Source: Myxococcales bacterium
GTDB taxonomy: Bacteria > Myxococcota > Myxococcia > Myxococcales > Myxococcaceae
Direction of reading: 5' to 3'
Assembly (NCBI GenBank): GCA_020846875.1
Contig: JADLDB010000064.1
Coordinates: forward strand, 1 to 38,059
DNA: 38,059 nucleotides
Under the pieces are notes generated by a model. It was not told where the DNA came from and made no database searches. It worked only from the letters and a program-made list of their open reading frames with translations. Every line of letters begins with the position of its first letter. Positions within the stretch are counted from its first letter, which is position 1. Shown piece by piece: positions 24,080 to 34,423 of this stretch. Both the position numbers and the translations under genes were made by a program.

Positions 24080-24191
24080 GGGCCGGGTGGTTCGCACCCG
24101 CCGGGCCCTGGGTCAAGCCGCTCAGCGGGGCGGCTCACCAGCAGGTGCCGGTGTCCTTCGTCACTGGGTGGTCGCCGCGGACCAGGAGGCC

Positions 24192-24386
24192 CTTTGCTGG
24201 CACAGGGAGAGCACTTTGCTGGCACAGGGAGAGCACTTTGCTGGCACAGGGAGGGCACTTTGCTGGCACAGGGAGGGCACTTTGCTGGCACAGGGAGGCC
24301 CTTTGCTGGCACAGGGAGGCCCTTTGCTGGCACAGGGAGGGCCCTTTGCTGGCACGAGGAGAGCACTTTGCTGGCACGAGGAGGCC
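24192..24386. repeat. tandem repeat, nine copies of a 21-22 bp unit
   Basis: Units begin CTTTGCTGGCAC and continue with AGGGAG or GAGGAG plus a variable GGCC, GGCA or AGCA end. They start at 24192, 24214, 24236, 24258, 24280, 24301, 24322, 24344 and 24366. Units 1-2, 3-4 and 5-6 are pairwise identical, and 8-9 share CACGAGGAG. Degenerate partial units flank the array at 24181-24191 and 24387-24396. The array lies between the stop of the ABC ATPase gene and the start of the M61 gene. No coding frame across it has a plausible gene context. Confidence 0.9.
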
Positions 24387-24399
24387 CTCTGCTGGGCGC

Positions 24400-25434
24400 T
24401 CACGCGGCAGGCGGGTACAGGCGAATCCGGCCCAGGCGCAAGGGCAGCCTCGACGAGGGCGTGGCGTCGTCGCGGGGCGGGCCGACCGCGCGCAGCACCC
24501 GATCGCCGAGGAGGAAGCGGTACTCGGTAGCGCTGCCGAGGAAGAGCCGCGCGCTCAAGGGGAGCGCGGGGCCGTCGCCGCCGACGTGGAGATCCTCCGG
24601 CCGCACCACCAGGGTGGCCGGGCCCTCGGCCGAGTCACTCCCTGCGGGGAGCGGGAAGCGCACGCCGGCGCACACGAAGCAGCCGCCCTCCACCACGCCA
24701 TCGAGCTGGTTGGCGCCGCCCACGAAGCTCGCCACGTACGGCGTCGCCGGCTCCCGGTACACCACGTCCGGCCGGCCCACCTGTTCGATCACTCCGCGGC
24801 TCATCACCGCCACGCGATCGGCCAGCGCCAGCGCCTCGCCTTGATCGTGGGTGACGAAGATCATCGTCGTGCCGAGGCGGGCGCGCAGGGCGGCGATCTC
24901 ACCGCGGAGCTCCTCGCGCAGCGCCGCGTCCAGGTTGGACAGCGGCTCGTCCAGCAGCAGCACCTTCGGGTTCGCCACCAGCGCGCGCGCGATGGCCACG
25001 CGCTGGAGCTGCCCGCCGGAGAGCTGTTGAGGCAGCCGATCGCCCAGCGCGGACAGCCGCACCCAGCTCAAGCCCTCGGCTACGCGCCGCTCCACCTCGG
25101 ACCTCGCCACGCGCTGGAGCGTCAAGGGGTAGGCGACGTTCTGCGCCACGGTGCGGTTGGGCCACACCGCGTAGCTCTGGAACACCATTCCCAGGCCGCG
25201 GCGCTCGGGCGGCGTGCTGCCCTTCGGGCCGTCCACCTCCTGCCCGTCGATACAGATGACGCCGCGATCGACGCGCTCCAGGCCCGCCACCATCCGCAGC
25301 GTGGTCGTCTTCCCGCAGCCCGACGGCCCCAGCAGCGCCACCAGCTCCCCGCTGGCGATGGACAGCGACACGCCCTTCACCACCTGCGTGGCGCCGTAGG
25401 CCTTGTGGACGTCGGTGAGCTGGACCGAGGCCAT
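24400..25434 (-). CDS. ABC transporter ATP-binding protein (Fe3+/polyamine/phosphonate type)
   Basis: A 344-residue ATPase that powers the permease encoded just upstream. Walker A GPSGCGKTT is at 36-44, the Q-loop is FQSYAVWP (86), the signature LSGGQLQR is at 138-145, Walker B VLLLDEP at 158-164, and the H-loop is FVTHDQGEAL. A C-terminal TOBE-type domain follows (about 245-344) with VVRPEDLHV. The family handles ferric iron, polyamines or aminoalkylphosphonates; the substrate cannot be read from the ATPase. The ATG lies two bases after the permease stop, so the two are coupled. Confidence 0.93.
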   Translation of the reverse strand: MASVQLTDVHKAYGATQVVKGVSLSIASGELVALLGPSGCGKTTTLRMVAGLERVDRGVICIDGQEVDGPKGSTPPERRGLGMVFQSYAVWPNRTVAQNVAYPLTLQRVARSEVERRVAEGLSWVRLSALGDRLPQQLSGGQLQRVAIARALVANPKVLLLDEPLSNLDAALREELRGEIAALRARLGTTMIFVTHDQGEALALADRVAVMSRGVIEQVGRPDVVYREPATPYVASFVGGANQLDGVVEGGCFVCAGVRFPLPAGSDSAEGPATLVVRPEDLHVGGDGPALPLSARLFLGSATEYRFLLGDRVLRAVGPPRDDATPSSRLPLRLGRIRLYPPAA

Positions 25435-25436
25435 CT

Positions 25437-27062
25437 TCAGCGGGCCTCCCGCCGGGTGAGCAGCGCCTGCGCCGCCTGCGCGAGCAGCAGCAGCAGCACG
25501 AAGGCACAGGCGATCACCGCCGCCGCGCCCGGATCCGCGTAGCTCTGCAGCTCGAAGAGCAGCGTGCCCAGCACGTCCGCGCCGGTGGGGATGAGCAGCA
25601 CGCTCAGGGTCAGCTCGGTCATGCAGACGAGGAAGGTGATCAAGAAGGCCGCGCCCAGGGCGCCCTTGAGCTGCGGCCAGGTGGCGTCGACGAAGGCCCG
25701 CGCCCGCGAGGCCCCGAAGATCCGCGCCGCCTCCGCCAGGCTGGGATCCACCTGCGCCAGCGCGTCCGAGGCGCTCCTCGCGCCGAAGGCCAGGTGCTTC
25801 ACCGCGTACGCGACCAGCAGCAGCCACAGCGTGTTCCCCAGCGCCAGCACGAAGGCCACCCGCTCGAAGGCGATGAAGCGCACGTCGCGGGAGAAGGCCA
25901 CCAGCAGCCCCAGCGCGAGCACCGTCCCCGGCACTGCGTAAGGTGCGCCCGCCAGCGCCTCGAGCCAGCGGCGCCGCGTCGACGCCACGGCGAGCCCCAG
26001 CCCCGTCACCAGCGTGGCCGCGGAGAAGGCGAGCAGCACACTGCGCCCCGCCGCGGAGATCGTCCTGGGGCTCGACAACACCGCGCCCCAGTGCTTCGTC
26101 GTCAGTCCAGTGAGCTGCCCCCACACCGGCTGCACCGAGGTGAGCGCCACCGCGAGGAGCGGCAACACCACCAGGATCACTCCCAGCGCCACCGCCACCG
26201 CCGTCAGGGGCCCGCGCCAGCGCCCCAGGGGCATGGGACGGAGGGAGAGGCCCTTCCCCGAGGACAGCCGCACCTCGCCCGCGCGCGTCAGCCAGCGGCT
26301 CACCAGCAGCACCACGCCCGCCAGCACCAGCAGCTCCACCGACAGCACGGCGGCGCGCGCGAGGCCCGTCGAGCCCATCAGCACCTCGCCATAGACACGT
26401 GTCGTCAGCGTGGGCGTGGGCGGCGTCGCCGTCACCCCCAGCAGGTACGGCACCCCGAAGGCCGAGGCCGTGAAGAGGAAGGTGAGGGCGGTGCCCGAGA
26501 GCGCCGCCGGCAGCGCCAGCGGCAGCGAGATGGTGAGGAGTGTGCGCGCGGGCGAGGCGCCGGAGATGCGGGCGGCCTCCTCCAGGGACGAGTCGAGGCG
26601 GGAGAGCGCCGCGGTGGTGGCGAGGAAGACCAGCGGCAAGCCGGCGGAGCCCAGCACGAAGGCGATCCCCGCCGCCCCGTAGATGTCGAAGGTGCCCGCG
26701 CCCAGCGCCAGGTTGAGCAGGCCCGCCTTCGGGTTGGCCAGCGACACCCAGCCCATGCCGAGGATGAACGGAGGAATCGCGGTGGGCAGCGTGAAGGTGG
26801 CCTTGAGCGCCTTCTTGAGGCCGAGATCGGTGCGCACCAGCAGCAGCGCCAGCGGGACGCCCACCAGGAAGGCGAACAGCGCCGCCCCCAGTGAGGTGAG
26901 CGCAGTGCCACCCAGCGCGCGCACCGCGTCGGCGCTCGTCCACACCGCCCACCAGTCGAGGTCCTCCGCGCGCGCGGCCCGGGCGAGGAGGAGCAAGAGC
27001 GGCAGGCCCGCGAAGACGAAGAGGCCGGCGGCCAGCAGCGCGGTGGGCCAGCGGCGCGTCAT
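25437..27062 (-). CDS. double-length ABC transporter permease
   Basis: A 541-residue inner-membrane protein made of two permease halves in tandem, so one polypeptide supplies both membrane domains. Each half has an EAA loop that contacts the ATPase: EEAARISGASPARTLL near 178 and AEAARIFGASRARAFV near 448. About twelve membrane segments are visible. This fused arrangement is typical of FbpB/AfuB-like iron permeases and of some thiamine or phosphonate systems. The ATG overlaps the stop of the solute-binding gene (ATGA). Confidence 0.93.
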   Translation of the reverse strand: MTRRWPTALLAAGLFVFAGLPLLLLLARAARAEDLDWWAVWTSADAVRALGGTALTSLGAALFAFLVGVPLALLLVRTDLGLKKALKATFTLPTAIPPFILGMGWVSLANPKAGLLNLALGAGTFDIYGAAGIAFVLGSAGLPLVFLATTAALSRLDSSLEEAARISGASPARTLLTISLPLALPAALSGTALTFLFTASAFGVPYLLGVTATPPTPTLTTRVYGEVLMGSTGLARAAVLSVELLVLAGVVLLVSRWLTRAGEVRLSSGKGLSLRPMPLGRWRGPLTAVAVALGVILVVLPLLAVALTSVQPVWGQLTGLTTKHWGAVLSSPRTISAAGRSVLLAFSAATLVTGLGLAVASTRRRWLEALAGAPYAVPGTVLALGLLVAFSRDVRFIAFERVAFVLALGNTLWLLLVAYAVKHLAFGARSASDALAQVDPSLAEAARIFGASRARAFVDATWPQLKGALGAAFLITFLVCMTELTLSVLLIPTGADVLGTLLFELQSYADPGAAAVIACAFVLLLLLAQAAQALLTRREAR

Positions 27063-28078
27063 CGAGAGAAGGCCTCGCTGAAGTCAGACTTCACCCGCGC
27101 CCCTTCGCGCAGGCCCCGGCGGAGGAGCTCCTCGTTCCACGGCTGGCTGCGCGCGACCAGCTCGGTCAGCGAGACGATCTTCCGCGGACCGGGGATCCGC
27201 GGATCGACCGCGTGCATGTCTCCGGGGCTGGCGATGATCGCCTGGAGCGTCGGCGAGAGCAGCGCGTCCACCACCGCCTTCGCGGCCTCCGGGTTGCGCG
27301 CCGTGGAGAGGATCGCCGCGTAGCCGGGGATCAACACCGCGCCGTCCCGGGGCCAGGCGATCTCGATCGGGCTGCCCTTCGCCTTCGCCGCCAGCGCGTT
27401 CTCCAGGAGCAGCACCCCCACCTTCGCCTCGCCGCCCTCCACCTTCTGCAGCACCGCCGCGTTGCCGCCGGCGACCCGCGCGCCGTTGGCCCGCAGCGCC
27501 GTGAAGAACCCCGGGCCGTACTTCGCCTCGAGCGCCACCGCCCAGGTGTACGCCGTGCCGCTGGTGAGGGGATCGCCCAGCGCCACCTCGCCCTTCCACG
27601 CCGGAGTCGTCAGCGCCTCGAAGCTCTCGGGTGCCGGCGCGCCCGCGCGGTGGATCAGCACCATGGTGGACAGGCGCACCGCCCCGTAGTGCCCGTCGAG
27701 ATCGGACAGCCCCGCCGGCGTGCGCAGCCCGTTGGGGGAGACGTACCGGAGGAGCCGGCCTTCGTCCTTGAAGCGCTCGTAGAGGAAGGGATCGGACGTC
27801 ACCAGCACGTCGCAGGGTGTGCCCCCCGCCGAAAGCTCCGCCTCCAGCTTCGCCGTCACCTTCTCGCTGCCCGCCTGGAACCAGCGCAGCGTCACCCCCG
27901 GGAGCGCCGCCTTGAGGCCCGGCTCGAGCGCATCGAGCACGCTCCGGTACATCGAGGTGTAGATCCACACCTCGCCCGCGGGCCGGCCCGTGGCGCTGGC
28001 GGGGCCGCCGCCGGGAGTCGCCGTCTCGATGCGACAGCCGCAGAGGGCGAGGGCGGCGAGGGCGAGGGCGAGGCGCAC
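27059..28078 (-). CDS. lipid-anchored extracellular solute-binding protein
   Basis: A 339-residue solute-binding lipoprotein. The signal peptide ends in LALCGC (lipidated C15). The mature part shows the FbpA/PotD-like pattern: VWIYTSMYRSVLDALEPG at the start, CDVLVTSDPFLYERFKDEG, a central GTAYTWAVALEAKYG and the C-terminal VLIPGYAAILSTARNPEAA. The family delivers Fe3+, polyamines, thiamine or phosphonates. The paired Tyr ligands of classic FbpA are not clearly seen, so iron is an inference from the locus. The GTG start has no SD; a TGCTACAAG element (28089-28097, minus strand) ends 10 nt before it, so the ABC genes may have their own promoter. Confidence 0.88.
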   Translation of the reverse strand: MRLALALAALALCGCRIETATPGGGPASATGRPAGEVWIYTSMYRSVLDALEPGLKAALPGVTLRWFQAGSEKVTAKLEAELSAGGTPCDVLVTSDPFLYERFKDEGRLLRYVSPNGLRTPAGLSDLDGHYGAVRLSTMVLIHRAGAPAPESFEALTTPAWKGEVALGDPLTSGTAYTWAVALEAKYGPGFFTALRANGARVAGGNAAVLQKVEGGEAKVGVLLLENALAAKAKGSPIEIAWPRDGAVLIPGYAAILSTARNPEAAKAVVDALLSPTLQAIIASPGDMHAVDPRIPGPRKIVSLTELVARSQPWNEELLRRGLREGARVKSDFSEAFSR

Positions 28079-28111: not shown

Positions 28112-28453
28112 TCACGAGCCCGCGCCGGCCGCCTGCTCCTTCACCACCGTCAGCCAGTACTCGCGCCCGTAGTACTGCCGCATCATCCCCAGCTTCCTCC
28201 CGTCCTTGAACAGCACGAAGGCGGGGATGCCGGCGATCGCGAAGCGCCGCGCCAGCTCCGGGTAGTCGTAGGCGTTCACCTTCACCACCCGCACGCCGGC
28301 GGGCAGCCCGGGCAGCAGCTCCGGCAGCTCGCGCGCGAAGATCTCGCAGTTGGGGCAGTCCGGCCCCCAGAAGTACGCCACCCTCAGCGGGCCGGGCCCC
28401 GCCATCAGCGCGTCGAAGGTCTGCGGTGTCGCGTGCTCCAGCGCGGCGCTCAT
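28112..28453 (-). CDS. thioredoxin-like protein (CPNC)
   Basis: A 113-residue thioredoxin-fold protein. The active site is WGPDCPNC (Cys 33 and 36) in place of WCGPC, and the cis-proline is seen in AGIPAFVLF (P77). There is no signal peptide, so it should act in the cytoplasm as a disulfide reductant. It is the first gene of the minus-strand arm, 33 bases before the solute-binding protein gene. AAGGGG lies about 6 nt before the ATG, and a TACAAG hexamer ends 8 nt before it. Its link to metal uptake is positional only. Confidence 0.85.
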   Translation of the reverse strand: MSAALEHATPQTFDALMAGPGPLRVAYFWGPDCPNCEIFARELPELLPGLPAGVRVVKVNAYDYPELARRFAIAGIPAFVLFKDGRKLGMMRQYYGREYWLTVVKEQAAGAGS

Positions 28454-28495: not shown

Positions 28496-28515
28496 ATGCA
28501 CGGTAGGCCGTGCAT
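28496..28515. promoter_or_regulatory. perfect 8+8 inverted repeat, candidate operator
   Basis: ATGCACGG (28496-28503) and CCGTGCAT (28508-28515) are separated by TAGG. The symmetry and position between two divergent transcription units suit a dimeric regulator. TTGACG at 28480-28485 just upstream could be a -35 box. The bound protein is not identified. Confidence 0.5.
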
Positions 28516-28519
28516 TACT

Positions 28520-28536
28520 TTGCGAGTGATTCTCAA
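28520..28536 (+). promoter_or_regulatory. Fur-like box
   Basis: TTGCGAGTGATTCTCAA has the 7-1-7 symmetry of Fur boxes. Its right half ATTCTCA matches the consensus family exactly, and the left TGCGAGT matches the complementary TGAGAAT at five of seven positions. It lies in the divergent promoter region, and it overlaps the GTG proposed as the imelysin start. If Fur binds here, either the true start is slightly downstream or the site acts over the first codons. Confidence 0.5.
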
Positions 28537-29716
28537 AATCCTGGGCCTCGCCGTGGTGATCGGCGCGCTGCTCGCCGGGCTGGGCTGTCCGAGCTCGAAG
28601 ACGGAGCCGGAAGGGGACGCCAAGCGGGCGGTGCTGAAGGCGGTGGGGGAAGGCGTGATCCTCCCCACGCTGGAGGGCTTCCTCGCCGAGGCCCGCGCGC
28701 TGGAGCTGGCGGCCAACGCGTACGCCACGGCCCGGGCAGCGGGGCCGGCCTCGGCGGAGCTGACGGCGGCGAGGGACGCCTTTCGCACCGCCTTCCTCCG
28801 GTGGCAGGTGGCGGAGGTGCTGCAGGTCGGACCGGCCGGGCCCGCGGGGACGATGACTGGCGGGCTGTCGCTGCGGGACACGATCTACTCCTGGTCGGTG
28901 GTGAACACCTGCCGCGTGGACACCCACCTCGTGGACAAGGCCTGGGAGGCGCCCGGCTTCTTCGACACCGCGCTGGTGACCTCCACCGGGCTGGACGTCG
29001 TGGAGTACCTGCTCTTCGTCGACGCGGCGGCCAACACCTGCGACGCCACCGCGCCCATCAACACCAACGGCACCTGGGCGGCGCTCTCCCCGGACGAGCT
29101 GGCCCGCCGGCGGGCGGAGTACGCCAAGGCGGCGGCGGCGCACGTCGCGGCCACCGCGGCCCGCCTGGTGAGCCAGTGGAAGGAAGGGGGCTTCCTCACC
29201 GCCTTCACCACCGCCGGCCTGCCGGGCAGCCCCTTCCCCACCGCCCAGGAGGCGCTCGATCAGCTCTTCGCCGCGCTCTTCTACGTCGACGCCATCGTCA
29301 AGGACGACAAGCTGGCCAACCCCGCGGGCCTGACGATCACCTGCCTCGACCTGGCCTGCCCCCAGCTCGCCGAGGCCGTCCCGTCCGGCTACTCCCGCGA
29401 GGCGCTGGTGGAGAACCTGAAGGCGGCGAAGGCGCTGCTGCGCGGCGGCTTCACCGGGAGCGGCAAGGGCTTCGACGCCTTGCTCGCGGCCAGGGGTGCG
29501 GAGCCGCTGGCCGATCAGATGGTGGCGGCGCTGGACGAGGCGATCGCCTCGGTCGCCACGCTGACCGTCCCCGTGGATCAGGCTGTCGTGTCCCAACTCG
29601 ACGACGTGAAGGCCGTCCACGCGAAGGTGAAGGCCTTCACGGATCTCCTGAAGTCGCAGTTCGTCACCGTGCTGAACCTCCGCGTCCCCCAGGAGGGGGC
29701 CGGGGACAACGATTGA
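28526..29716 (+). CDS. imelysin-family (M75-like) lipoprotein
   Basis: About 396 residues from the GTG at 28526. The signal peptide (MILKILGLAVVIGALLAGLG) ends in a lipobox with C21. The mature protein is almost all helical and follows the imelysin pattern: LRWQVAEVL, LRDTIYSWSVVNTCRVD, then STGLDVVEYLLF where many members have GxHxxE. Here the His is Asp (GLDVVE, about 155-160) while the Glu is kept. Imelysin proteins are iron-regulated periplasmic or outer-membrane lipoproteins such as IrpA and EfeO/EfeM relatives. An ATG at 28496 is in frame but would place a palindrome inside the coding sequence. It is followed 17 bases later by a second lipoprotein gene. Confidence 0.8.
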   Translation: MILKILGLAVVIGALLAGLGCPSSKTEPEGDAKRAVLKAVGEGVILPTLEGFLAEARALELAANAYATARAAGPASAELTAARDAFRTAFLRWQVAEVLQVGPAGPAGTMTGGLSLRDTIYSWSVVNTCRVDTHLVDKAWEAPGFFDTALVTSTGLDVVEYLLFVDAAANTCDATAPINTNGTWAALSPDELARRRAEYAKAAAAHVAATAARLVSQWKEGGFLTAFTTAGLPGSPFPTAQEALDQLFAALFYVDAIVKDDKLANPAGLTITCLDLACPQLAEAVPSGYSREALVENLKAAKALLRGGFTGSGKGFDALLAARGAEPLADQMVAALDEAIASVATLTVPVDQAVVSQLDDVKAVHAKVKAFTDLLKSQFVTVLNLRVPQEGAGDND

Positions 29717-29733
29717 AGCTCAAGGGAGGAAAC

Positions 29734-30813
29734 ATGCGGCTGTTGCAAGGAAGTCTCGTCGCGCTGTTCGTGCTGGGCTGTGGTGGTGGCGTCTCGGCAG
29801 ATCCCTGCGCCGGCGGGCCCGCCTACCCCGACGAGGCCTTCGCGACGAACGCCTCCGCCGAGCTGGCCATGGCCGATCAGCTCCTGGCGATGAACGCCCT
29901 GGTGAAGGACGTGAATGCGCGGCCCACCGCGGCGCAGCTCCAGAGCATGTACGAGGCCGGCACGCCCAGCCTCTCGTCCATCGCCGCGCCGGCGGTCACC
30001 GCGTCGCTCCCGGCGCTCTTCGCGTCGATCGAGTCGTCGGCAGCGGGCACGTGGACGCCCGCAGAGCCACCTCCTGCCACCGGGGGGCGTCTGGGTGGGG
30101 TGCTGTTCTCGGCGCGCGGGCAGGATCTCCAGGAGGCGCTCGAGAAGGGTCTGCTCGCGGGCGCCCACTACCATGAGGCGCTGCGGTTGCTGGAAGGCGA
30201 AGTCACCCCCGCGACGGTCGATCGGATCCTCGCGCTGTATGGCGCGTGGCCCAGCTTCCCGATGGACACCAAGGCGGCGGTCAACCCGGACCGCTTCTCG
30301 GCGGGCTACGCGAAGCGCCGCACCAACCCGGCCGCCGAGACGCCCGGGCTGTACCTCACCATCAAGCAGGCCTTCATCGACGCGCGCGCGGCGGCGGCGG
30401 GGGGGGCCACCTGCGCGGCGAAGCGCGACGCGGCGCTCGAAGTCCTCCGCAGCGGCTGGGAGCGGGCGATGGTCGGCACGACCGTCTACTACCTGAACAG
30501 CGCCGCCGGGAAGCTGGAGAAGAGCAACCCCACCGACGCCGAGCGCGCGTCCGGCTTGCACGCCTACAACGAGGCGGTGGGCTTCCTCAAAGGGCTGCGC
30601 GCGCTTCCGGCGTCCTCGCGCCGTGGGAGCGACGCGCAGCTCGACGAGGTGCTCGCCACGCTGCTCGCCCCGTCGGGCGCCGAGGTCGAGTCGTACAAGT
30701 TCCTCACCGACGGCGTGACGAACCTGCCCCGCCTCGTCCAGGCCGGCACGCAGCTTCAGGCCGCGTGGGCGTTCACCGCGGACGAGGTGGCGAACTTCAA
30801 GGTCAACTACTGA
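29734..30813 (+). CDS. second helical lipoprotein of the imelysin locus (GxHxxE motif)
   Basis: A 359-residue lipoprotein. The signal peptide ends in LFVLGC (lipidated C16). The mature part is helical and contains EKGLLAGAHYHEALRLLEG with an exact GxHxxE motif (G143 to E148), and later GLHAYNEAVGFLKGLRAL. I do not match it to a named family with certainty; DUF4856-like or a divergent imelysin are the best candidates because such proteins accompany imelysins in other genomes. GGGAGGA just before the ATG is the strongest SD of this locus. The stop overlaps the next start by one base (TGATG). Confidence 0.7.
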   Translation: MRLLQGSLVALFVLGCGGGVSADPCAGGPAYPDEAFATNASAELAMADQLLAMNALVKDVNARPTAAQLQSMYEAGTPSLSSIAAPAVTASLPALFASIESSAAGTWTPAEPPPATGGRLGGVLFSARGQDLQEALEKGLLAGAHYHEALRLLEGEVTPATVDRILALYGAWPSFPMDTKAAVNPDRFSAGYAKRRTNPAAETPGLYLTIKQAFIDARAAAAGGATCAAKRDAALEVLRSGWERAMVGTTVYYLNSAAGKLEKSNPTDAERASGLHAYNEAVGFLKGLRALPASSRRGSDAQLDEVLATLLAPSGAEVESYKFLTDGVTNLPRLVQAGTQLQAAWAFTADEVANFKVNY

Positions 30814-32141
30814 TGCTCGGCCGGGTCCGCGCGAAGCTGTCCGAGCCGGTCGACGTCGCCAGCCTGGCGACGCTGCGGACCGTCTTCGGGCTGCTGATGT
30901 GCGCGGGCCTGGTGCGCCTGCAACTGACCGGCTGGGTGGAGCCGCTCTTCACCGCGCCGCGCTTCACCTTCACCTACCAGGCCTTCGCCTGGGTGCCTCA
31001 CCTGCCCGCGGCGTGGGTGAGCGCGGTGGTGTGGGGGGCGGCGGCGGCGGCCCTGGCCTTCGCCCTGGACGTCTACCCGCGGGTGTCGGGCGCAGTCTTC
31101 GTGGTGCTCTTCGCCTGGCTGCAGCTCTTCGACGTCACCAACTACCTGAACCACTACTACCTGGCGGTGCTGCTGGGCGCGCTGCTCACCCTCCTGCCCA
31201 CGAGCTGGAGGCAGGGGCAGGTGCCGCGGTGGGCGGTGTGGCTGGTCCGCTTCCAGGTGGGCGTCGTCTACTTCTACGCGGGGCTGGCCAAGCTGGGCAG
31301 CGACTGGCTGCTGCACGCGCAGCCGTTGTCGATCTGGTTCGCGGCGCGCACCGAGACGCCCCTCCTCGGGCCGCTCCTCGCCCAGCCCTGGGCGGCGTAC
31401 GCGGCGGCGTGGTTCGGCTTTTTGAACGACTTGACGATCGTCGCCTGGCTGTCGTGGCGGAGGACGCGCCCCTTCGCCTACCTGGTGCTCGTCCTCTTCC
31501 ACACGCTGACCTTCGTCTTCTTCGACATCGGGATGTTCCCGTTCCTCATGACGGCGGCGGCGCTCGTCTTCTTCGCGCCGGATTGGCCGCGGCGCTTCTT
31601 CCTCAGGCCGCCCCGGCCGACGGTGGCTGCCTCGCGCCTCATCCCGCTGCCGCTGCTGATCGCCGTCGGCGCGTTCTGCGCCTTCCAGGTGCTGTTCCCA
31701 CTGCGCGACCTCGCGCTGCCGGGCGACGTGCTGTGGAACGAGGACGGGATGCGCTGGTCCTGGAAGGTGATGGTGCGGGAGAAGAACGGCGCCGTCGCCT
31801 ACCGGGTGAGACAGCCGCGCACGGGCCGCGAGTGGCAGGTGAACCCCTCGGCCTGGCTCCTGCCGCGCCAGGCGAACGAGATGAGCGGGCAACCGGATCT
31901 GATCCTCCAGTTGGCCCACCACGTGGCGCAGGACTTCGCCGCGCGCGGGATCGCGGACGTGGAGGTGCGCGCCGACGCCTGGGTGTCGCTCAACGGCAGG
32001 GCGCCGAAGCCGCTCATCGATCCCTCCGTCGATCTGACGAAGGTGGCGGACTCCGCGTGGGGCTCGGCCTGGGTGCTGCCAGGGCCAGACGAAGGCCCGT
32101 TGCCGGCCTTCCGGCCCGAAGAGGCGACGGCATGGCGCTGA
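30813..32141 (+). CDS. HTTM/vitamin K-dependent gamma-carboxylase-like membrane protein
   Basis: A 442-residue integral membrane protein with about seven or eight membrane segments in the first 290 residues and a soluble C-terminal domain of about 150 residues. It matches the HTTM/VKGC family: FDVTNYLNHYYLAVLLG (His114, at the place of human GGCX His160), VVYFYAGLAKLGSDWLLHAQPL (Lys160, at the place of the catalytic Lys218) and VLFHTLTFVFFDIGMFPFLM. Human VKGC carboxylates Glu to Gla using reduced vitamin K. Bacterial relatives exist without a known substrate. Its place between two lipoproteins and a TonB receptor suggests it acts on one of them (inference). The stop overlaps the next gene by 10 bases. 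Confidence 0.85.
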   Translation: MLGRVRAKLSEPVDVASLATLRTVFGLLMCAGLVRLQLTGWVEPLFTAPRFTFTYQAFAWVPHLPAAWVSAVVWGAAAAALAFALDVYPRVSGAVFVVLFAWLQLFDVTNYLNHYYLAVLLGALLTLLPTSWRQGQVPRWAVWLVRFQVGVVYFYAGLAKLGSDWLLHAQPLSIWFAARTETPLLGPLLAQPWAAYAAAWFGFLNDLTIVAWLSWRRTRPFAYLVLVLFHTLTFVFFDIGMFPFLMTAAALVFFAPDWPRRFFLRPPRPTVAASRLIPLPLLIAVGAFCAFQVLFPLRDLALPGDVLWNEDGMRWSWKVMVREKNGAVAYRVRQPRTGREWQVNPSAWLLPRQANEMSGQPDLILQLAHHVAQDFAARGIADVEVRADAWVSLNGRAPKPLIDPSVDLTKVADSAWGSAWVLPGPDEGPLPAFRPEEATAWR

Positions 32142-34423
32142 GCTTCTTCGCGCTGAGCGCGTGGCTCCTCGTGGCAGCGCTCGCGCCGCAGGACGCTGCC
32201 GCGGTCGAGGAGGCACCTCCCGTGGCGCCGGCGGCGAGCTCCGAAGGGGAAACCGACGGAGGGCTGACGCCTGCACCGGAGACCGCCCCCGGCCTCTACG
32301 GCTCACCCGACGCCGGCGCCGCACCTTCCCGCGAGACGACGGTGATCGCCCAGCGGCAGGTGGACCTGCGCCGAGTAGCCGGCTCGGCCCAGGTGATCGG
32401 CCGGGAGGAGTTGGAGCGCACCGAGAGCAACGACATCAACCGGGTGCTGCAGAGCGTCCCCGGCGTGTACGTGCGGGAGGAGGACGGCTTCGGCCTGCGG
32501 CCCAACATCGGCCTGCGCGGCGTCAACGCCGATCGCTCGAGCAAGGTGACCCTGATGGAGGACGGCGTGCTGTTCGCGCCGGCCCCGTACTCCGCGCCCG
32601 CGGCCTACTACTCGCCCCTCGTCACCCGCATGGTGGCGGTGGAGGTCTTCAAGGGGCCCGCGTCCATTCAGTACGGGCCCAACACCATCGGCGGGGCGAT
32701 CAACTACCGCACCCGTCCGCTGCCCCGGCAGGCGGAGGGAGATCTCGATCTGTCGATCGGCAACTACGGCACCGGCAAGGTGCACGCCGTGGCCGGCTAC
32801 GGCACGGAGCGCTGGGGCGTGCTGCTCGAAGGGGTGCACCTGCAGAGCGGCGGCTTCAAGCAGCTCGACGGCGGCGGCGACACCGGCTTCGACAAGAACG
32901 AGCTGATGCTCAAGGTCGGCTGGGCGAGCGATCCCCAGGCGCGCCTGCGCAACGCCTTCGAGCTCAAGCTGGGCTTCTCCAACGAAGGCTCGAACGAGAC
33001 CTACCTGGGCCTGGCCACCGACGACTTCGCGTTGACGCCGCAGCGCCGCTACGCCGCCAGCGCGGACGATCGCATGGAGTGGTGGCGCACCCAGGGGGTG
33101 ATCACCCACCGCCTGTCCGTGGGCGACTGGCTGGAGGTGAGCACCACCGCCTACCGGAACGACTTCGCGCGCACCTGGCACCGCTTCGATCACTTCTCCA
33201 GCGGCCCCGACGTCTACAAGGTGCTGGCGTACCCCACCGGCAGCAACGCGGTGTACCGGGCGATCCTCGCGGGTGACGAGGACTCGACGGGCGAGGATCA
33301 GCGCCTGGTGATCCTCGACAACGGCCGGCGCTTCGTGTCCCAGGGTGTGCAGGTGAACGCCACCGCGACGTTCACCACCGGCCCTTTGGCGCACGAGGTG
33401 GAGCTGGGCGCGCGCTTCCACCACGACGAGATCCGCCGGGATCACGTCGGGAACTTTCTTCACATGCGCAGCGGCGCCCTGGTGCCCTCGGGGGACGCGC
33501 CGGAGCAGTTGGCGGCGAACGTGGCCTACACCAGATCGTTCTCCGGCTTCGTCGCGGATCACCTGACGTGGGGCCGGCTGCTGGTGTCGCCAGGCCTGCG
33601 GATCGAGGTGCCGGACGAGCACTTCGGGGACGAGCTGACCGGCCGGTCGAGCAGCGGCACCAGCGTGGTGCCCCTCTTCGGCCTGGGCGCGGTGTACGGC
33701 CTGGACTTCGGGATCTCGGTGTTGGCTGGAGTGCACCAGGGCTTCTCGCCGGTGGCCCCGGGGCAGGATCCGTCGGTGCAGCCGGAGCGGGCCATCAATT
33801 CCGAGGCCGGGGTGCGCTACGCGCACAACGGGCTGCGCGCCGAGCTGATCGGCTTCTGGAGCGAGTACCAGAACATCACCGGCGAGTGCACCGGCAGCAC
33901 CGGCTGCACCAGCGACGCGATCAACCAGCAGTACAACGGTGGCCGCGCCCGGGTGCTGGGGCTCGAGGCCATGGGCAGCGCCCGCAAGCGGCTCCCGCTG
34001 GGCTTCGTGCTGCACGCCGATCTCTCGTACACCTTCACCCAGGCCTGGTTCCTCACCGCGTTCACCTCGGCGAACCCGATCTGGGGGGCGGTGGCGCAGG
34101 GCGACGCGCTCCCCTACATCCCCCAGCACCAGGGGCAGGTGCGCCTGCGGGGCCAGCGCGGGCCCTTCGAGCTCGGGGTGGGCGCCATGTACTACGGCGC
34201 GATGCGCGAGGTGGCGGGGCAGGGCGAGGTGCCCGAAGTCGAGGAGGTCCCCGGGCGGGTGCTGCTCGACGTCACCGCCTCGGCGGAGGTGGGCGCGGGC
34301 CGGGTGTACTTCACCGCCACCAACCTCCTCAACCAGTCGGCGCTGGTGTCCCGCCGGCCGATGGGCGCCCGGCCGCAGGCGCCGCTGCTCGTGCAGCTCG
34401 GCTTCAAGTACTCGTTCCGGTGA
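32132..34423 (+). CDS. TonB-dependent outer membrane receptor (FecA-like)
   Basis: A 763-residue outer membrane receptor. A signal peptide (about 1-24) and a Pro/Glu-rich linker are followed by a TonB-box-like ETTVIA (68-73). The plug (about 75-200) has IGREELERTESNDINRVLQ, SVPGVYVREEDGFGLRPNIGLRG and EVFKGPASIQYGPNTIGGAINY. A 22-strand-type barrel ends in an aromatic KYSFR. FecA-like plugs transport ferric citrate or other ferric chelates using TonB energy. A short disulfide-like CTGSTGC pair sits in an outer loop near residue 590. The ATG overlaps the end of the HTTM gene. Confidence 0.93.
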   Translation: MALSFFALSAWLLVAALAPQDAAAVEEAPPVAPAASSEGETDGGLTPAPETAPGLYGSPDAGAAPSRETTVIAQRQVDLRRVAGSAQVIGREELERTESNDINRVLQSVPGVYVREEDGFGLRPNIGLRGVNADRSSKVTLMEDGVLFAPAPYSAPAAYYSPLVTRMVAVEVFKGPASIQYGPNTIGGAINYRTRPLPRQAEGDLDLSIGNYGTGKVHAVAGYGTERWGVLLEGVHLQSGGFKQLDGGGDTGFDKNELMLKVGWASDPQARLRNAFELKLGFSNEGSNETYLGLATDDFALTPQRRYAASADDRMEWWRTQGVITHRLSVGDWLEVSTTAYRNDFARTWHRFDHFSSGPDVYKVLAYPTGSNAVYRAILAGDEDSTGEDQRLVILDNGRRFVSQGVQVNATATFTTGPLAHEVELGARFHHDEIRRDHVGNFLHMRSGALVPSGDAPEQLAANVAYTRSFSGFVADHLTWGRLLVSPGLRIEVPDEHFGDELTGRSSSGTSVVPLFGLGAVYGLDFGISVLAGVHQGFSPVAPGQDPSVQPERAINSEAGVRYAHNGLRAELIGFWSEYQNITGECTGSTGCTSDAINQQYNGGRARVLGLEAMGSARKRLPLGFVLHADLSYTFTQAWFLTAFTSANPIWGAVAQGDALPYIPQHQGQVRLRGQRGPFELGVGAMYYGAMREVAGQGEVPEVEEVPGRVLLDVTASAEVGAGRVYFTATNLLNQSALVSRRPMGARPQAPLLVQLGFKYSFR

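Follow-up and report, generated by a model that had tools for sequence, protein, structure and literature searches.

Among imelysins, the IPPA family was defined by loss of the motif histidine (Xu et al., 2011; PMC3143127). In human GGCX, conserved pocket residues bind and deprotonate vitamin K, with Lys218 acting as the base (PMC12589487). In Riemerella anatipestifer, a TonB receptor, a "vitamin K-dependent gamma-carboxylase", an imelysin lipoprotein and a neighboring hypothetical gene (RAYM_09779-RAYM_09794) are all present in a list of Fur-regulated genes (PMC5609570). Here, a four-gene operon with such functions is described in contig JADLDB010000064.1 of a Myxococcales bacterium (assembly GCA_020846875.1); the window is this whole stretch of 38,059 nucleotides. 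The operon encodes an IPPA-family imelysin lipoprotein, a DUF4856-family lipoprotein, a GGCX-like membrane protein and a TonB-dependent receptor (Table 1). The host genome (7.06 Mb, 200 contigs) contains a single HTTM gene and two matches to imelysin. On balance, we favor a Fur-controlled iron-acquisition operon, in which the receptor, the imelysin, the DUF4856 lipoprotein and a menaquinol-using GGCX-like enzyme would act as one system.

The four-gene arrangement is real and conserved. An earlier note on this DNA had described four plus-strand open reading frames (ORFs) forming one unit; the ORFs were confirmed, with a 17-base gap after the first gene followed by overlaps of 1 base and 10 bases, and the unit recurs in other genomes. 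A scan with the HTTM protein matched 80 loci from Myxococcota, Bacteroidota and Acidobacteriota, most of which have an imelysin gene directly 5' and a TonB-receptor gene 3', with DUF4856 in about half. The common order is DUF4856-imelysin-HTTM-receptor, the first two genes being reversed in the window. A same-strand imelysin gene lies directly upstream of 50 of the 59 GGCX-type genes found in 146 Myxococcota genomes (some of the nine others are near contig ends) and of 26/31 in 118 Bacteroidota genomes. Co-occurrence of the two genes by genome gives Fisher p values of 6e-20 (Myxococcota) and 3e-22 (Bacteroidota), which are uncorrected for kinship of the genomes and overstate independence because the sampled genomes are kin. 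The earlier note had staked its claim on a conserved neighborhood in related genomes; as the same gene set was found there, the claim survives. A TonB gene lies 3' of the receptor gene in four loci (L020, L023, L028 and L037). In Myxococcus relatives (L022, L026, L027 and about 17 more loci), a DUF5122 beta-propeller protein replaces DUF4856 near the operon. No open-access paper mentioning both HTTM and imelysin was found, and none mentioning DUF4856 at all, in a search that most subscription papers lay outside.

A Fur-box-like site at the 5' end of the operon (Table 1) is the sole match with three or fewer mismatches in 38 kb, where 0.16 would be expected. When about 300 bases upstream of each of 81 operons were searched, sites with at most two mismatches were present before 33 operons, as against 5 of the 1620 control windows drawn from these loci. 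As the site in the window is inside the annotated imelysin ORF, the true imelysin start would be at 28526 or beyond, or the site overlaps the start. The start codon may be ATG at 28496 or GTG at 28526, and the GTG start would likewise yield a lipoprotein-type signal. Just 5' of the Fur-box-like site, a perfect inverted repeat (ATGCACGG-TAGG-CCGTGCAT) occupies 28496-28515, at the annotated imelysin start. The Fur-box enrichment and the homologous Riemerella set suggest that the operon is likely to be iron-regulated; derepression under iron limitation has been reported for the Riemerella set only (PMC5609570). Together with conservation of the gene set, these features make iron acquisition a well-supported setting of the operon.

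In the system that we favor, the TonB-dependent receptor would carry an iron compound through the outer membrane, and the imelysin and DUF4856 lipoproteins would bind the compound or pass it along in the periplasm. The GGCX-like protein would be an inner-membrane enzyme whose active site faces the periplasm, performing with menaquinol (bacterial vitamin K2) and oxygen a chemical step that the system requires; its target would most likely be the partner lipoprotein or the iron carrier. Passage into the cytoplasm may be completed by the divergent ABC importer. Several points weigh against this system. To our knowledge, none of the operon's proteins has a known metal, siderophore or product. Fur-like sites are absent from 38/81 operons even at three mismatches, and just four other loci have an importer beside the operon, the binding protein being divergent. 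In three genomes (L130, L131 and L132), an imelysin-receptor operon is present with no GGCX-type gene detected, suggesting that the GGCX-like enzyme is not indispensable. Also, the purified imelysins PIBO and IPPA showed no specific binding of Fe(III) or heme (PMC3143127).

The third gene was called HTTM/VKGC-like in the earlier note, and matches to both the HTTM domain (PF05090) and the lumenal domain (PF22777) bear this out. Its alignment with human GGCX (E 7e-27) covers the transmembrane domain and part of the lumenal domain, and window residues Lys160, Asn113, His114 and His230 correspond to GGCX Lys218, Asn159, His160 and His287. The quinone pocket and the catalytic base Lys218 expected of a GGCX/VKGC-type protein are retained: GGCX K218, N159, H160, F286, H287, F299 and W223 are kept in 88/88 homologues, F294, V210 and G259 in 87/88, and A214 in 85/88. 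The full Glu-substrate pocket is not kept, as N158 is Leu in 88/88 homologues and Y395 and R436 are altered in the window enzyme, with N159 and H160 retained; in addition, K217 is Ala and the C99-C450 disulfide is changed. A kept quinone pocket with altered substrate contacts fits an active menaquinol user with a different substrate, and the residue pattern suggests that the enzyme is probably active, uses menaquinol and has a substrate differing from that of GGCX. Both menA and a VKOR homologue are encoded in the genome, which does not imply that these serve the GGCX-like enzyme. The earlier remark that a carboxylase-like member has no assigned role in such a system still holds.

In the tree, one clade (support 94/97) contains most of the imelysin-linked enzymes and separates them from the RibF-linked paralogues and other unlinked ones, and the enzymes of L017 and L040 cluster with the window enzyme (support 100/92). 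The separate Bacteroidota GGCX-like clade is located 3' of a gene for a RibF-type FAD synthetase/riboflavin kinase (L134:6009-6953, L135:5804-6745, L138:7852-8793). A further GGCX-like gene is on a Paracoccus albus plasmid (L173:5974-7365), beside a DUF393 gene and with no imelysin gene nearby.

Conservation of the quinone pocket would also be expected if the enzyme were a redox partner linked to quinol, reducing or oxidizing iron for the imelysin like the di-haem (EfeB/DHOR-type) proteins of other imelysin operons, and DHOR is missing from the surroundings of many GGCX-type operons. However, DHOR and the GGCX-like enzyme are present together in about 10 loci (L050, L051, L066, L068, L092, L093, L100, L102, L106), and GGCX chemistry is a strong-base oxygenation for which electron transfer to iron is not known; we regard the redox role as unlikely. 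Elsewhere in the host genome, DHOR and imelysin form a locus of their own (G000:C92; L107:6987-9268), in which the GxHxxE motif is intact (GVHGIE).

The window imelysin belongs to the imelysin superfamily by its PF09375 profile and by fold, with Foldseek matches to 4ecg, 3pf0 (TMt 0.83) and 7xrx. Its motif is GLDVVE, a GxxxxE form without the motif histidine of GxHxxE, as in the IPPA family, and its C-terminal tail is GDND. The motif histidine is missing in nearly all enzyme-adjacent imelysins, and is kept in second-copy and other imelysins. A D-x-D C-terminal end is present in 89/90 enzyme-adjacent imelysins (the exception is a frameshifted locus) and in 12/12 imelysins of a second Bacteroidota set; most Myxococcota have the tail GDND, and DNDGD-like tails are found in others. 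Of the 539 other genes in these loci, just 3 encode a D-x-D end. Two of these encode small non-imelysin lipoproteins with no Pfam match, which end with SDSDSD or GSDFD and are located directly 5' of a GGCX-like gene (L101:7050-8039, L103:7232-7981), leaving 1 of the remaining 537 non-imelysin genes. The enzymes of L101 and L103 belong to the imelysin-linked clade, and the position of these lipoproteins hints at a link between the tail and the enzyme.

This distribution, together with retention of the carboxylate-binding N159/H160 pair, might be explained if the GGCX-like enzyme acted on its partner lipoprotein, modifying the Asp-rich C-terminal tail (through Asp carboxylation, for instance) and so creating a metal-binding site. 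The tail was initially held to be a substrate mark specific to this enzyme, but the same tail is present where the enzyme is not: a DGD tail occurs on IPPA imelysins beside DUF1513 with no GGCX-like gene (proteobacterial plasmids and Myxococcota L170/L171), the imelysin of PDB 3pf0 carries the same Asp-rich tail, and the tail is present in the three enzyme-less operons. The tail is thus a signature of the IPPA family; no mention of it was found in Xu et al. (2011; PMC3143127). The slot 3' of the tailed imelysin gene is occupied by HTTM or DUF1513, depending on the lineage. Moreover, the tail contains no Glu, the enzyme does not keep N158, Y395 and R436 of the GGCX Glu pocket, and L101 and L103 represent one related case, not two independent cases. 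Tail modification is thus a tentative and rather unlikely explanation. We also consider it improbable that an enzyme using menaquinol and oxygen modifies the acidic tail of its partner to make a metal-binding site for iron acquisition, which would be a counterpart of Gla formation with another substrate.

The sole Pfam match of the second lipoprotein is DUF4856 (23.0 bits against a cut-off of 22.3). The earlier note had taken the two lipoproteins as an imelysin pair, but there is one imelysin only: neither motif nor profile places the second among the imelysins (profile-profile probability against imelysins, 0.6%), and the GxHxxE that the note had pointed out in it is not a conserved family feature, with the His kept in 2/45 and the Glu in 4/45. 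A model with pLDDT 93 gave no Foldseek match at E <=0.001, and the best VIA-align matches were catenin helical bundles (Z 7.7), within the range of unrelated helical proteins. No imelysin is among the VIA-align matches listed, which is not proof of a different fold. The receptor scores 112.7 bits against a FecA equivalog cut-off of 1100, so that the name FecA-like given to it earlier is a generic label.

As the earlier note had claimed, a thioredoxin-like gene and genes for a solute-binding protein (SBP), a fused permease and an ATPase are present divergent from the operon. In a profile scan of related loci, the thioredoxin-like protein was matched only in the window, and it was rejected as a conserved part of the system. 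Importers of the same general class, with an SBP, a fused permease and an ATPase, adjoin the operon in L017, L037, L040 and L044. The window SBP is 26% identical to that of L037, and the SBPs of L017, L040 and L044 were not matched with it (BLAST, E 1e-5); orthology of the importers across loci was thus not sustained. Of the full route from outer membrane to cytoplasm that had been suggested, the presence of similar importers beside four other operons lends slight support to the last step, and divergence of the SBPs speaks against it. A part for the importer in iron transport is plausible; the nearest solved relatives of its SBP bind iron compounds or pyridoxal phosphate. In another explanation, the operon would serve a different TonB-dependent cargo and be merely iron-regulated, with the neighboring importer taking up a phosphorylated compound: beside the iron-compound binders, the SBP relatives include the pyridoxal-phosphate binder 6wce and the aminoethylphosphonate-type 4r6y, and the best-scoring importer models are PhnSTU2. 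The Fur-box enrichment, the Riemerella Fur-regulon listing and the control of imelysin operons elsewhere by Fur argue against this, and we consider it distinctly improbable. Repeated GCAGGCACAGG-like units are present at 24145-24450 near the ATPase end, with TGGCACAGG repeats in the translations.

Table 1. Genes and putative regulatory site of the operon and its divergent neighbors (window coordinates)
Feature	Position	Strand	Basis or remark
Fur-box-like site TGCGAGTGATTCTCA, 2 mismatches to TGAGAATNATTCTCA	28521-28535	+	Overlaps 5' end of annotated imelysin ORF
Imelysin lipoprotein, IPPA (GxxxxE) family	28496-29716	+	Pfam PF09375 E 2e-30; motif, tail and fold matches
DUF4856-family lipoprotein	29734-30813	+	PF16148 E 4.5e-5; homologues in 40+ related loci
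HTTM/VKGC-like (GGCX-type) membrane protein with lumenal domain	30813-32141	+	PF05090 E 1.5e-60; VKGC_lumenal_dom PF22777 E 4.6e-44
TonB-dependent outer-membrane receptor, plug and barrel	32132-34423	+	Pfam Plug and TonB_dep_Rec
Thioredoxin-like protein, divergent	28112-28453	-	PF00085 E 1e-11
Lipoprotein-type ABC solute-binding protein (SBP_bac_6/SBP_bac_11)	27059-28078	-	Pfam
Fused ABC permease, two BPD_transp_1 domains	25437-27062	-	Domain searches
ABC importer ATPase	24400-25440	-	Domain searches

Bacterial GGCX relatives have long lacked a physiological setting. A Fur-box-linked operon common to Myxococcota and Bacteroidota supplies one, in which a partner protein can be named and the quinone-pocket residues are intact. 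Provided that the enzyme is active, vitamin K-dependent chemistry would serve bacterial iron uptake, and the ancestral substrate of the GGCX family could be sought in an iron operon.

Compared with human GGCX, the window enzyme has the quinone pocket and Lys218 in common, but is without K217, the C99-C450 disulfide and the C-terminal Arch region, in addition to the changes at N158, Y395 and R436. The Leptospira vitamin K-dependent (VKD) carboxylase orthologue is, like the window enzyme, a bacterial GGCX-type protein; in work by Rishavy et al. in 2005, it was reportedly an epoxidase with no detectable carboxylase activity. The Riemerella set has the same functions as the window operon, is adjacent by locus number and is Fur-regulated, but is a table entry never called a system (PMC5609570), and was matched by the listed functions alone. 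EfeUOB likewise uses an imelysin-domain protein in iron uptake, whereas the window operon has neither an Ftr1-type permease nor the EfeO cupredoxin domain. In the known Fur-linked imelysin-DUF1513 operons, as in the window, an IPPA-family imelysin is tied to iron and Fur. Here, however, a GGCX-like gene usually replaces DUF1513 after the imelysin gene (with DUF4856 between them in the window), DUF4856 and the TonB receptor are added, and most loci lack DHOR and the canonical GxHxxE imelysin. Overall, the operon is a variant of the Fur-linked imelysin operons, the unusual part of which is the GGCX-type enzyme.

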